From positions 124,001 through 188,000 of the forward strand of contig CM050666.1 in assembly GCA_027574665.1 (NCBI GenBank): a DNA stretch of 64,000 nt, read 5' to 3'. Source of the stretch: Rhynochetos jubatus (taxonomy: Eukaryota; Chordata; Aves; Eurypygiformes; Rhynochetidae). Positions 1 through 29,074 of the stretch are shown piece after piece. Below the pieces are notes generated by a model. The model was not told the DNA's origin. It saw only the letters and a list, made by a program, of their open reading frames with translations, and ran no database searches. Every line of letters starts with the position of its first letter. Position 1 is the first letter of the stretch. The position numbers and the translations under genes were made by a program.

Positions 1-340
1 GGCAGCGCCGGAGTTGTGGGAGCAGCGGGGGGGGCGGATGGGGGGCGGCCGCGGAGGTGTCCTTTTTTTTTTTCTTCTTTGTGTCTCTCTTCCTCCGGCC
101 GCAGGCTTGCCGAGCAGCGTCGGGGTTGGGGTGAGAGCGGGCCATGGGGGTGCTTACCCGAGGTTCGGGACTGCTAAGGCCCCCCCCTTGCCAGGGGAGA
201 CGTGGCGGCCCTGGTGCACAGCACCCCGGCGACGGGTCTCCCTCGGCGGCGCCGGGAGCAGGCAGTGCCGGCCCTGCCCACGTGCCGCAGGGTGGCTGCG
301 CCTTGGGGAGCCTCAAAGCCCCTCGATGCTCTTCTTGCAG
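1..340 (+). other. 3' part of intron 1 of copy 1
   Basis: The window opens inside the second polypyrimidine/CAG module of intron 1. The third module (T-run at 61-71, CCGCAG ending about 105) is complete. The intron ends at the TCTTGCAG acceptor, position 340, after which exon 2 carries 65 untranslated bases before the ATG. Long antisense or alternate-frame open stretches here are GC-rich artefacts. Confidence 0.7.
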
Positions 341-405
341 GCTCTGCCCCACCCTGTCCCTCCCTGTGCACCCTGTCAGCGCAAGAGCAGCTGAAGGCCC
401 AAGGC

Positions 406-2300
406 ATGGCTGGGGCATGGCGGAAGGCAGCAGCGGAGGGAAGGTGGCGGCCCTACGCCGCGCACGAGGTGGACGACGGCCTGCCCGACGTCACGTGGCT
501 GGAGGACTTCACCGTCACCGATACGGGCATGCCCAGGCCCCCGTACCTCTCCAGAGGCCTGGAACGCCGGGCCTGGGATAAGTTGCCCTCCTTTGCTGCC
601 CCGTGCTCGCGCCGGGCCGCTGGCCTGGCACGCATGGGTATTGCCCACCCCCCGTGCACTCCCACCTCTTCTTCCACCTCCAGGTCCATGCACCGTGCCG
701 TGGCCACGCACCCTGAGGCAACAGAGGACGTCGACTACAAGACCAACGCGTCCCTCAAGCCACCCTACTCCTATGCTGAGCTCATCTGCATGGCGATGGA
801 AGCCAGCAATCAGCCTAAAATCCCCCCCTCCGCCATCTACAAGTGGATTACCGACAACTTCTGCTACTTCCGACATGCCAATGCCACCTGGCAGGTAGGA
901 GATTTGGAGACCTCTTGCCTCGTCCCCTCCCGCCACAGGGCTGGCTAGGGCTTTCCACAGCCTCCACCACACAAGGCGAGGTCTGGCCAGGATGCTGGAT
1001 CAGACAGCAATGACAAAGAGGTCAGGTGGCCAGGTAAAAACGGGGGGTGGCCCAGGCGGAATGAAGTTGGAGATGGGGAGGGAAGAGGCCGAGCAGACAC
1101 TTCAGCTTGCAAGTCTCCGGCCCTTGGACAAATTCATGGCATTTGACATTTGGAGTACCACAGCCCAGCTTTGTTGCCGGGATACCTGTGCTCCTGCTGC
1201 TTTTCCCTTCCTTCCTTCCTTCCTTCCTCCCCCCAGTTTCTAGGCAGCCCTTCCGGCTTCCTGGAAGCCCTTCGCTCCTGCCAAGTGTGGCTGCATTAGG
1301 CCGGGAGGCAAGAGAAGTGTTGGTGGCTCAGGGCAGGGGAGTTTGTGCTGGGAATGTGGCCCGGGATGTCTTGACGCTGCCGTTTCTGCTTCCCCTTCGC
1401 CAAGGTCCGTGATGAAAACGGGCATGCATTTCTAGCCGCCTCCCCGTGCAGGTGGGTGCCGCAGCGGCAGACAAGCCTTCAGCCTAGGTTTTTTCTCTTT
1501 TGGTTTAGAATTCCGTCCGGCACAACCTCTCCTTCAACAAATGCTTTGTCAAGGTGCCTCGGGAGAAGGACGAGCCAGGGAAAGGTGGCTTTTGGAAGCT
1601 GGATCCCCAACATGCTGAGCGGCTGAAGAAAGACGCTTTCAGAAAGCGGAGGGTGTCCCTGCAAATCCACCCGGCCCTCACCAGAAGAGTCCGGCAAGCG
1701 GCCCAGGGCGTTGCCGGCCCCGCCGCTGTCGTCTGCACCGTCGAGAGCATGCTCAGCGTCGACAAAGAGTCGCAGAAGCTGCTGGAAGAGTTTGAAGCAA
1801 TGACCGGCGAGCACCAGTGGAGTCCGGCAGGTGGCAAAGCAGGGCAAAAACGCAAGCTGCCCTCACCCAAACGCATGGCCAAGGCATCTCGGCTTTCCAA
1901 TTTGGCCTTGGCGACGGAGGAGCAGGCCTTGCCGGCTGAAGAGAAGGCCTTGCGGACGGAGGAGCAGGCCTTGCCGGCTGAAGAGCAGGCCTTGCCGACG
2001 CAGGAGCAGGCCTTGCCGACGCAGGAGGAAGAGGACGACCTGATGTCGCTGCAAGGGGCCTTTGACTGGGACTCCATCCTCAACGCCAGCCTGGATATAG
2101 ACTTGTCCGTTTTTGAGGATGTGAAGTTCACGCCTCCAGGCAGCCCCGTACCACGCAACCCGGACCTGACGGTACACGGGCACCAGGTGGACGCTGTCCA
2201 GGGGCAGGAGCAGGGGCAGGTCCTCACCGAGTCCAGCCAGACCAACCTGGGCTTGGGAGGAAGCCCTGAGGGCCGCTTCTTTCCTGGGGCTCCACTGTGA
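406..2300 (+). CDS. FOXJ1: FOXJ1-like forkhead transcription factor, copy 1 (exons 406-894 and 1509-2300)
   Basis: FOXJ1 is the nuclear forkhead activator of motile-cilium genes. Exon 2 coding (163 codons) joins exon 3 across a phase-0 intron: CAG|GTAGGA at 894/895 and TTTAG|AAT at 1508/1509, the intron position known for FOXJ1. Predicted length is 426 residues; human FOXJ1 has 421. An acidic WLEDF block lies near residue 31. The forkhead domain spans about 118-210, with [14 protein letters not shown], the recognition helix [10 protein letters not shown] (164-173), [15 protein letters not shown], and a basic FRKRR tail. A second basic block, [13 protein letters not shown], is at 276-288, then five 7-residue repeats (299-333), then FDW and DLTVHG blocks as in FOXJ1. 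The chosen ATG has G at -3 and +4 and lies 65 bases into exon 2, whose acceptor is TCTTGCAG at 340. The C-terminus appears frameshifted (see 2241-2400). Private to this copy: Asn409 where the others have Asp. The promoter is outside the window. Confidence 0.87.
895..1508 (+). other. Intron 2 of copy 1 (splits the forkhead domain)
   Basis: GTAGGA donor after TGG CAG and a pyrimidine-rich TTTTGGTTTAG acceptor before AAT TCC. It is a phase-0 intron at the position known in FOXJ1. It holds a short TTCC run (1205-1229) directly followed by CCCCCCAG, a cryptic acceptor-like site. The counterparts are 5099-5716, 9360-10061, 13707-14408, 18008-18625, 22274-22891 and 26341-26954. Confidence 0.88.
1914..2018 (+). 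repeat. 21-bp coding minisatellite in exon 3, five heptads (copy 1)
   Basis: Perfect or near-perfect 21-bp units encode (T/A)EEQALP-type heptads, with one AEEKALR variant and a final TQEQALP. They sit between the second basic block and the FDW region. The unit size keeps the reading frame, so copy number can change without breaking the gene. The composition is acidic and Gln/Leu/Pro-rich. The proline in each heptad argues against a long continuous coiled coil. Confidence 0.93.
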
Positions 2301-2400
2301 TGAAGGGACAAAGCTCGATGTCCTCAGCGTGGATCTGTTGGAGAACGTCCCTTTGCCCCTGGATTGGAATGACTGGAGCAGTGTGGCAGCCCTCTTCTGA
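2241..2400 (+). other. Remnant FOXJ1 C-terminal coding sequence in the +1 frame (copy 1; same in all copies)
   Basis: In the annotated frame exon 3 ends at 2300. Read one base later, the sequence stays open from about 2242 to a stop at 2398-2400 and encodes [12 protein letters not shown] followed, at the end, by DWNDWSSVAALF. These match the arrangement at the end of canonical FOXJ1, where a TSFL..HPWDE block precedes a terminal D-W-x-S-V-x-A-F/L motif (family knowledge). An indel that is not a multiple of three therefore probably lies between about 2240 and 2265. Equivalent out-of-frame tails end at 6650, 10995, 15342, 19580, 23783 and 27846. No plausible intron (GT...AG of adequate size) is visible that would restore the frame. 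Confidence 0.72.
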
Positions 2401-2532
2401 GAGGCCCGTCAGCATTTGAAAGCCCACGCAGGCTCCTTTTTAGGGGGGTGGGGTGTCCCGAGGCCAGCAAGCAAGGGCCATGTCTCTGGGGGGGGCTTTG
2501 GGGATAGATAGGTGATGTTGAAAGAGGTTTGT

Positions 2533-27746: not shown

Positions 27747-27978
27747 TGAAGGGACAAAGCTCGATGTCCTCAGCGTGGATCTGTTGCAGAACGTCCCTTT
27801 GCCCCTGGATTGGAATGACTGGAGCAGTGTGGCAGCCCTCTTCTGAGAGGCCCGTCAGCATTTGAAAGCCCACGCAGGCTCCTTTTTAGGGGGGTGGGGT
27901 GTCCCGAGGCCAGCAAGCAAGGGCCATGTCTCTGGGGGGGGCTTTGGGGATAGATAGGTGATGTTGAAAGAGGTTTGT

Positions 27979-27984
27979 TATAAA
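27979..27984 (+). terminator. Putative polyadenylation signal TATAAA, copy 7
   Basis: Identical context to copy 1, with GT-rich downstream sequence. Confidence 0.55.
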
Positions 27985-28001
27985 TCTTTGTGGTTGTAAA
28001 T

Positions 28002-29074
28002 CTTGATCACTTGGTTGTCCTCTGTTTTTCTGGTTTGGGGCCTCTGTGTGGAGGCTGAAATAGGGCAGAGATGCACGTGCCATTGCACCTTTGCCAGGGA
28101 AAGTTATCTCTAAGTTTTGACAAAGCAAGAAACGGTCCGTTTGCCTCCTTCTTTCCCTCCAGCGCTGCCCGTCTGTGTCTGACGCCCTCCCCTGTGGGTA
28201 GGGGACATCTCACCAGCCCAGCCCCGGTCCGTGGGTGCTACCCACCCCCGTGCGCGGCGGCACGGCAATTCCCCGAGGGGAAACCGAGGCGCAAAGCACC
28301 GCCTGCATGGCGATGGTTAGCCAGCAGCTGTGCGGCACGAGGGTGGCCCAGTGTCCTGGGAGCTGCTGCCAACGCCTGGCGCATCCTTCCTACGAGGAGC
28401 TCCTGGGGGTGATGACAGGCCATTGGGCAGGGTCATTGCTCACCCGCGGGGGCCAGGCAGAACCCCCCGGCACCCCCAGCGTCGTCCCTTTGGGCCTTTT
28501 GTGGGACTTGATTGAATCGTTCCCTCTTGGGGCTTGTCTAGGGGTTTTGCGCCCGCTTTTCCAGAAGCTCCCTCCTCTCCCGTGAGCTTTGCAAGTTGGG
28601 GGTCGTCGCCGGGACGAGGTAAGGGACGGCCGGACAGCCGCGGTGGCAGAAAGCGGCGGGGGGAGGGGCGCTGCCGAGGGAGGGCTCAGCCGGGCGGCCC
28701 GTGCAAAGCCGGCTGTCAGGAGCGGGAGGTTTGCCCGGGGGAGGGCTCGGTTTTGTTCTTGGAGCTTTCTTCTCTAGGCGCAGTTTCATCTTTACTGATT
28801 GCATCGGGACTTTTGTCCGTTGGAGGCCCCCCCCCGCTGCCCGCTCGCTGCACCCGGCGTTCCTGGGATGGGATCCTCGTTCCCTGCCAGCACAGGAGCT
28901 GGCCCGGCTGGGGGGTGACACTGGGGAGCAGGCACCTGAACGCGGCTGTGGCTGCCCCCAGCCTTGTTTTGGGGGCAAAAAGCCTGTGCTGCGGGAGCGG
29001 GGCGGGTAGTCCCACCGCGCCGCGCTCGCGCCGCGCTCATGCCCGGCCAGGGCCGGCAGCCGCATTCAAAGGCT
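28002..29074 (+). pseudogene. Truncated eighth unit: spacer and 5' part of a CpG promoter/exon 1, fused to satellite
   Basis: The sequence follows the normal unit through the GC box (about 29000-29006) and ends at AAAGGCT (29074), where other units continue GCAGCCGCGG. The rest of exon 1, the introns and all coding exons are missing. Compared with other units, four C-G dinucleotides have become C-A at 28432, 29014, 29049 and 29064, three of them within 65 bases of the junction. This pattern fits methylated-CpG decay on the opposite strand. Confidence 0.85.

Follow-up and report, generated by a model that had tools for sequence, protein, structure and literature searches.

This report concerns a tandem array of FOXJ1-like genes in the bird Rhynochetos jubatus, found in a 64,000-nucleotide stretch of contig CM050666.1 (C21:124001-188000; hereafter the window) of a genome assembly of 1,331,379,947 bases in 148 contigs, which range from 148.6 Mb to 0.28 Mb among those seen. 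FOXJ1 acts as the master regulator of motile ciliogenesis, and a genome is expected to hold a single copy of it. As an earlier note made from the letters of the window had claimed, seven FOXJ1-like gene copies lie head to tail on the + strand of positions 1-29073, and we have found that this array is separate from the ordinary FOXJ1 gene, which lies on another contig (C22), and that the genome contains at least 174 array copies. The copies and the sequences adjoining them are as follows, with the lengths of the predicted proteins in amino acids (aa).

406..2300, + strand: copy 1 (coding exon 2 at 406-894, intron, exon 3 at 1509-2300; 426 aa)
4610..6550, + strand: copy 2 (exons 4610-5098 and 5717-6550; 440 aa)
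8871..10895, + strand: copy 3 (exons 8871-9359 and 10062-10895; 440 aa; intron with (CCTT)n expansion)
13218..15242, + strand: copy 4 (exons 13218-13706 and 14409-15242; 440 aa; intron with (CCTT)n expansion)
17519..19480, + strand: copy 5 (exons 17519-18007 and 18626-19480; 447 aa)
21785..23683, + strand: copy 6 (exons 21785-22273 and 22892-23683; 426 aa)
25852..27746, + strand: copy 7 (exons 25852-26340 and 26955-27746; 426 aa)
27747..29073, + strand: end of the array, the 3' flank of copy 7 and then a next unit cut within its promoter region
29074..64000, + strand: 472-bp satellite

The ATG codon stands at the first position of each listed copy, and the spacing from one ATG to the next is 4067-4347 bp. 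Whole units of the seven copies show pairwise identities of 99.53-99.91%, and their alignment contains 40 substitution columns, about a dozen of which fall in a poorly aligned G-rich end. The recent amplification or homogenisation proposed in the earlier note is thus borne out, and the array, with tandem units of more than 1 kb in many near-identical copies, has the structure of a macrosatellite. The predicted proteins differ in length because an in-frame 21-bp repeat (EEQALPA/T) in exon 3 varies, and the introns differ because a CCTT run varies. In the introns of copies 3 and 4 (9671-9781 and 14018-14128) the (CCTT)n run is pure and about 28 units long, and the other five copies carry about 7 units or fewer; an expansion common to two adjacent copies is expected from local duplication. 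To the left of the window the array continues, as had been anticipated, with two further copies (one of them frameshifted) and one partial copy, and it starts at C21:113,907. Within the satellite, one irregular stretch at 62742-63261 (272-bp spacing; one 744-bp step between anchors) breaks the 472-bp periodicity.

The array unit and the ordinary FOXJ1 gene

The FOXJ1 origin of the array is well supported. The Pfam forkhead domain was found in the array protein with 118.5 bits against a cut-off of 27, and this domain is 86% identical to that of the FOXJ1 gene on C22, in comparison with 45-53% for eight other FOX domains of the same genome; the intron is at WQ/NS, as in ordinary FOXJ1. In a forkhead tree, the order of the C22 gene, the array and human FOXJ1 came out without firm resolution (support 0.75). 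The earlier note had advised a search for a canonical FOXJ1 in the same genome, and one was found: a codon pattern of 12 residues of ordinary FOXJ1 matches once genome-wide, on C22 at 11.23 Mb, when zero mismatches are allowed, a setting that a diverged second gene would escape. At this locus (L014, C22:11225001-11235000) the FOXJ1 frame is complete, with 438 aa encoded by two exons. Relative to the human sequence, its forkhead domain carries two unusual residues, R156Q and D184G (array numbering), at which the array keeps the usual residues.

The array unit can be aligned with the ordinary gene over the 5' region, exon 2, parts of the intron, exon 3 and the 3' flank, with identities of 76-85% in long blocks and 81-91% in shorter blocks. 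The unit corresponds to positions 1683-8226 of L014 in gene direction, and its downstream end joins its upstream end near window position 11561, in copy 3; in other words, the gene has been duplicated in tandem as a whole. The two agree in their promoter, in the arrangement of exons, in where the intron lies and in the forkhead domain, whereas the array differs by a 1-bp insertion with a new 16-residue ending, an expanded 7-aa repeat, a shorter intron, the lack of the segment with AATAAA, and a shift towards GC. The following features, most of them in copy 2, illustrate the unit.

3861..3876, + strand: presumed exon-1 splice donor of copy 2, CAG/GTAAGT (non-coding exon 1 would end at 3870 and exon 2 would start at 4545)
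6112..6277, + strand: in-frame minisatellite of 21 bp (7 aa, EEQALPA/T) within exon 3 of copy 2, longer than in ordinary FOXJ1
6494..6507, + strand: 1-bp insertion common to the copies, shown for copy 2 (GGGCTTGGGAGG, versus GGACTGTGAGG in the ordinary gene)
6508..6650, + strand: former C-terminal coding region of copy 2, out of frame (the other frame ends ..LDWNDWSSVAALF)
7219..8110, + strand: promoter and 5' region of copy 3 as an example unit, GC- and CpG-rich (GC 0.71; ratio of observed to expected CpG, o/e, 0.86) and homologous to the 5' region of ordinary FOXJ1

For comparisons among copies we have sampled 40 complete copies out of the at least 174, of which those on C3 (8) and C21 (9) represent whole arrays. 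The remaining 23 come from tiles of flanking sequence, from one search locus and from picks among the best-scoring exon-3 rows, which biases the sample to open copies. Two candidates were dropped: the first ran into the end of its stretch, and the second (C146:665016-667000) was missed by the exact exon-3 motif because of a V-to-I change and was also incomplete; variation at exon borders is hidden by this exact filter. Two broken copies in the sample were excluded from the variant, divergence and frequency analyses. The intron is 585-726 bp in the 40 copies versus 2,734 bp in the ordinary gene.

The coding sequence has been altered by a single inserted T (GGAC-TGTGAGG has become GGGCTTGGGAGG), which shifts the frame after SSQTDL. 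The same 12-residue ending follows in all 38 sampled copies that are open that far, and the conserved C-terminus is gone from the frame. The lost region is recognisable in the other frame, and in the comparison with the ordinary gene its ratio of nonsynonymous to synonymous divergence (dN/dS) is 1.3-2.4 over 47 codons. The description of the seven genes as intact therefore stands for the frame as far as codon 426-447 and fails for the C-terminal region, which all seven have lost through the shared insertion. The polyadenylation signal that each copy had been credited with was not found: copy 2 has neither AATAAA nor ATTAAA within 1.35 kb past its stop, the only similar motif there being TATAAA at +233, and the ordinary-gene segment 6870-7713, which holds both AATAAA signals (+546 and +847 past the stop), has no counterpart in the unit.

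As for the promoter attributed to every copy, a CpG-rich 5' region homologous to that of ordinary FOXJ1 is indeed present, and that of copy 1 lies to the left of the window start. Splice sites are retained where looked at, as had been claimed. The unit probably has a non-coding first exon like the ordinary gene, judging from aligned donor-like sites (ordinary FOXJ1 has the similar donor AAG/GTAAGT). The exon-1 donor and exon-2 acceptor were counted 9 times on C21 (9 copies) and 8 times on C3 (8 copies), and at the loci fetched TTTAG stands before exon 3 in 42 of 42 cases. The filter that defined the 40-copy sample included the exon-2 donor motif, and its presence there is no independent count.

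Array edges, flanks and satellite across contigs

The copy number given above is based on a 34-base stretch of array exon 3, for which 174 matches with at most one mismatch were found genome-wide (109 forward and 65 reverse; a whole count). The ordinary gene is not among them, because it has three differences within the stretch. The satellite-side edge of the array was found at 18 sites on 17 contigs (C3, C12, C13, C14, C15, C18, C21, C24, C28, C30, C32 twice, C35, C49, C66, C130, C143 and C146), 17 of the 18 without mismatch. The other, distal edge was likewise found at 18 sites on 17 contigs, 15 of the 18 without mismatch, and the set is the same with C148 replacing C66; these two contigs are perhaps fragments of a single chromosome. 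We have taken contigs as chromosomes, which is an assumption; the 12 contigs C3, C12-C15, C18, C21, C24, C28, C30, C32 and C35 with the array are 5.7-126 Mb long. Seventeen arrays have both edges on one contig and amount to 743 kb in total, from 6.9 kb (C130) to 81.5 kb (C14). On long contigs, arrays near the start are on the + strand and those near the end on the - strand, and the genes face the satellite at all 18 satellite-edge sites. C32 (7.2 Mb) has two arrays, both on the + strand and well inside the contig (1298776-1366932 and 3778094-3842770); fusion, duplication or a mis-join is possible there. A sex-chromosome or germline-restricted reading was also considered and is not favoured, with edges on 17 contigs, one of them of 126 Mb.

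The flanks are shared as well. According to letter-by-letter alignment, C21, C3, C28 and C12 join the array at the identical base at both edges, and the distal flank of C21 is 99.96% identical to that of C3 over 7,478 bases, 99.88% to C28 over 4,966 bases and 99.36% to C12 over 2,186 bases. A 2-kb probe from this flank (C21:109001-111000) has matches of 99-100% in at least 17 places on 16 contigs, among the best 40 of 49 candidates scored. Its first 850 bases recur with 96-98% identity at no fewer than 10 more places, 9 on contigs without an array edge and 1 on C13. The final 1,150 bases of the probe are repeated at 13 or more places on C20 (16366170-16577866), mostly about 16 kb apart, and this row is possibly the source of the 1.15-kb piece distal to the arrays, or another large-unit array. 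A second 2-kb probe, from C21:6401, matches with 100% identity (rounded) in 22 places, including C4, C5, C6, C7 and C8, contigs on which no array edge was found, and more loosely (96-97%) at C6:44.16 Mb and, in two pieces, on C2. The two flank probes are 102.5-102.9 kb apart in all 22 places having both; this constant spacing shows collinearity and near-identity, at least for two probes separated by 0.1 Mb, on 21 contigs, of which those bearing the array are one class. The flank segment thus occurs with and without the FOXJ1 array (C21:1-114000, L015-L021; C3:1-107479; 19 further contigs). The same near-end segment is present at about 99% identity or more on several presumed non-homologous chromosomes, as is characteristic of pseudo-homologous regions.

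In samples of 600 bases the satellite was met as far as 1.0 Mb on C21, 0.5 Mb on C3 and 1.2 Mb on C28, and no longer at 1.5 Mb on C21 or at 1.0 Mb on C3; the satellite block adjoining the array measures at least 0.36 Mb on C3, 0.67 Mb on C28 and 0.85 Mb on C21, if it is continuous between the samples. This block is presumably the centromere, and the shared segment looks, as far as the assembly tells, like a short-arm-like region of many chromosome ends. The telomere pattern has 2350 forward and 5644 reverse matches genome-wide; no telomere repeat was found at the starts of C21, C3 and C4, and the starts of C28 and C14 read N.

Such uniformity raises the question of an assembly artefact, in which a single array has been duplicated onto many contigs. 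Flank identities of up to 100% would agree with it, and six edge contigs (C49, C66, C130, C143, C146 and C148) may be small pieces, with C49, C66 and C146 being 0.28-1.2 Mb long. We regard this explanation as scarcely credible, because the 17 single-contig arrays vary in length, the copies carry different substitutions, and the distance from array to contig end varies from contig to contig. A collapse of the array to one locus in long reads, which the earlier note had named as a refutation, is likewise unlikely, given that the assembly shows each edge at 18 sites, with arrays that differ in length and in their variants.

Homogenisation and selection among the copies

Copies are not clearly sorted by contig: their mean divergence is 0.0026 within contigs (68 pairs) and 0.0030 between contigs (635 pairs), a difference reached in 282 of 2000 label shuffles, in a test to which most contigs contributed one to three copies only. 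Among the substitution variants, 15 are common to two or more contigs, 9 occur repeatedly on a single contig and 34 are found once. Exchange between non-homologous chromosomes may be ongoing. The copies also differ from the ordinary gene in base composition. Differences between the array and the ordinary gene are 232 towards GC and 66 away from it (P 8e-23; an unpolarised contrast), and CpG o/e is 0.66 for the unit and 0.86 for its promoter part, versus 0.38 and 0.54 in the ordinary gene. Among the copies, polarised variants have the opposite tendency, with 23 GC-to-AT and 8 AT-to-GC changes, the AT-to-GC alleles being at higher frequency (P 0.017), after 22 unpolarised variants were dropped. 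This pattern fits GC-biased conversion, which we infer to be the cause; a hypomethylated germ line would also help retain CpG. The substitutions T140P and L141P in KIPPSAIY (ACC to CCC and CTC to CCC), which belong to the residues that the earlier note had singled out, are both AT-to-GC differences and would be accounted for by the shift towards GC.

Over 389 codons, the array and the ordinary gene differ with dN 0.108, dS 0.170 and a ratio of 0.64 by NG86, and with a ratio of 0.52 by YN00; for the forkhead domain the ratio is 0.50-0.85 depending on the method. The ratios of 0.52-0.64 fit a nearly neutral array branch, because they are pooled with a presumably constrained branch. When the human forkhead was used as outgroup, 8 changes were assigned to the array branch, 2 to that of C22 and 3 to neither. 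Codon positions 1, 2 and 3 differ from the ordinary gene almost equally, by 14, 13 and 17% in exon 2 and by 8.4, 8.8 and 10.6% in exon 3. Outside the repeat, 38 copies together carry 19 distinct nonsynonymous and 6 distinct synonymous variants, with an expected ratio of 2.1-3.1 from mutation enumeration; because the observed ratio is near the neutral one, no purifying selection is visible among the present copies, nor did we find the deficit of nonsynonymous variants that marks a selected multicopy family. The earlier note had taken unusual forkhead residues as a sign of a distinct paralogue, a view to which the near-neutral variant ratio, the near-equal codon-position divergence and the GC-ward differences are unfavourable. 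It had also named a dN/dS near 1 together with absent transcripts as a refutation, and the copies supply the former half of this pair.

The frame is open (412-468 aa) in 38 of the 40 sampled copies, and on the whole arrays of C3 and C21 in 16 of 17. The two broken copies are C21:116007, frameshifted (201 aa), and C32:3822483, with a stop (345 aa). A second TAG is present in 11 of 64 full-length exon-3 rows among the matches listed, every one of them on C32. Since the sampled C32 copy with the stop is among these 11, the others have been taken as likewise truncated. The open frames, together with the retained splice sites and CpG-rich promoter, agree with a functional amplified FOXJ1 paralogue, for example a testis-expressed one, in which the high copy number serves dosage and the C-terminal change is adaptive. 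The stretch NSVRHNLS, which we take to be the recognition-helix stretch of the forkhead domain, is also retained, and F172 occurs in two other forkhead domains of the genome (L006 and L007). A further favourable point is the testis bias of chicken pericentromeric multicopy genes, on 7 of 10 dot chromosomes (PMC9974502). We nevertheless consider such a paralogue unlikely, in view of the neutral variant ratio among copies, the similar divergence at the three codon positions, the loss of both the conserved C-terminus and the AATAAA segment, and the extra stop on C32.

A probable gene-bearing macrosatellite and known systems

On the basis of these results, we consider it probable (roughly 0.7) that the array is a gene-bearing, GC-rich macrosatellite derived from FOXJ1 and homogenised between non-homologous short arms. 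Its formation would have begun when FOXJ1 was copied in full, CpG-rich promoter and 3' flank included, to a site beside a satellite block. The copy would then have acquired the one-base insertion and lost the conserved C-terminus, with the poly(A)-signal segment absent, after which head-to-tail amplification would have taken place and the unit with its flanks would have spread to at least 17 contigs, at 18 sites per edge. Unequal exchange and conversion, including those between non-homologous short arms, would maintain the near-identity of the copies and shift their composition towards GC. If transcribed, the copies would yield a FOXJ1 protein with the DNA-binding domain and without the normal C-terminus; any expression of the array is most likely incidental or limited to testis, with no essential function.

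Several points weigh against this macrosatellite origin as a purely neutral history. Besides the high proportion of open frames, counted in a biased sample, the coding alignment before the shared insertion contains only an in-frame 105-bp gap and no stop, in contrast to the non-coding parts, where 9 of 10 indels in about 1.47 kb are not multiples of three. The simulated neutral chance of remaining stop-free since the split is 0.02-0.08 under flat or CpG-weighted mutation, and 0.28-0.39 only with GC bias. The stop-free frame and the indel contrast suggest that the frame was selected for at least part of its history, and such past selection on the array frame is weakly supported by the sequences compared. 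In addition, the contrast of 232 to 66 is without polarity, and a recent spread would look like ongoing exchange. One could also suppose that the truncated FOXJ1 competes with the ordinary protein, as a dominant-negative regulator or a selfish modifier of spermiogenesis. The complete DNA-binding domain, the absence of the C-terminal region in the 38 sampled copies open that far and the continued openness of the frame before the shift would suit this proposal, whereas the variation among copies is neutral, and we judge it very improbable.

The macrosatellite reading may be extended, tentatively and with the odds against it, to the idea that the array is a recombination hub, in which the row of CpG-rich FOXJ1 promoters at the boundary of short arm and satellite acts as a row of hotspots. 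Bird recombination is located at CpG islands, and birds are not known to have PRDM9. If this holds, at least 0.1 Mb and perhaps 0.5 Mb of short arm would be kept near-identical on about 20 contigs, the shift towards GC would be driven by the same process, and the C-terminally truncated FOXJ1 would be made incidentally in the male germ line. The presence of one ordinary FOXJ1 alongside at least 174 truncated, mostly open macrosatellite copies on many contigs offers a system in which one can test how protein genes turn into satellites, whether acrocentric short arms can be homogenised by arrays of CpG-rich promoters in the role of PRDM9 motifs, and whether such arrays would be mistaken for the expansion of a gene family by annotation pipelines.

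Among the papers listed by searches of open-licence literature, we found no description of a FOXJ1 macrosatellite of this kind; two of them contain FOXJ1 (PMC5082287 and PMC7949040), and their titles do not point to gene amplification. Three known systems can be compared with it. The D4Z4/DUX4 macrosatellite is alike in its GC-rich unit of a few kilobases, its transcription-factor frame and its position near chromosome ends, but it derives from a homeobox retrogene, and the FOXJ1 array from an intron-bearing forkhead gene. The nearest precedent appears to be the multicopy genes of chicken dot chromosomes, which lie in pericentromeric heterochromatin, such as OR29G with 386 intact copies, and show the testis-biased expression mentioned above (PMC9974502). 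They share with the array a high-copy, mostly intact coding gene in satellite-rich near-end sequence; the FOXJ1 array differs in being one gene with the same edges on at least 17 contigs, including one of 126 Mb, and in missing its ordinary C-terminus. In mechanical terms the array resembles more the pseudo-homologous regions that human acrocentric chromosomes have in common, including the GC-rich SST1 array (PMC10172130): in both cases a GC-rich tandem array lies in near-identical segments of non-homologous chromosomes near short arms. Unlike SST1, the FOXJ1 unit is an intron-bearing gene with a promoter, it occupies 18 sites per edge, and its recombination between heterologous chromosomes is putative. 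The general kind to which the array belongs is known, and what is new is the combination of the chicken and human cases, an SST1-like array whose repeated unit is a protein gene.

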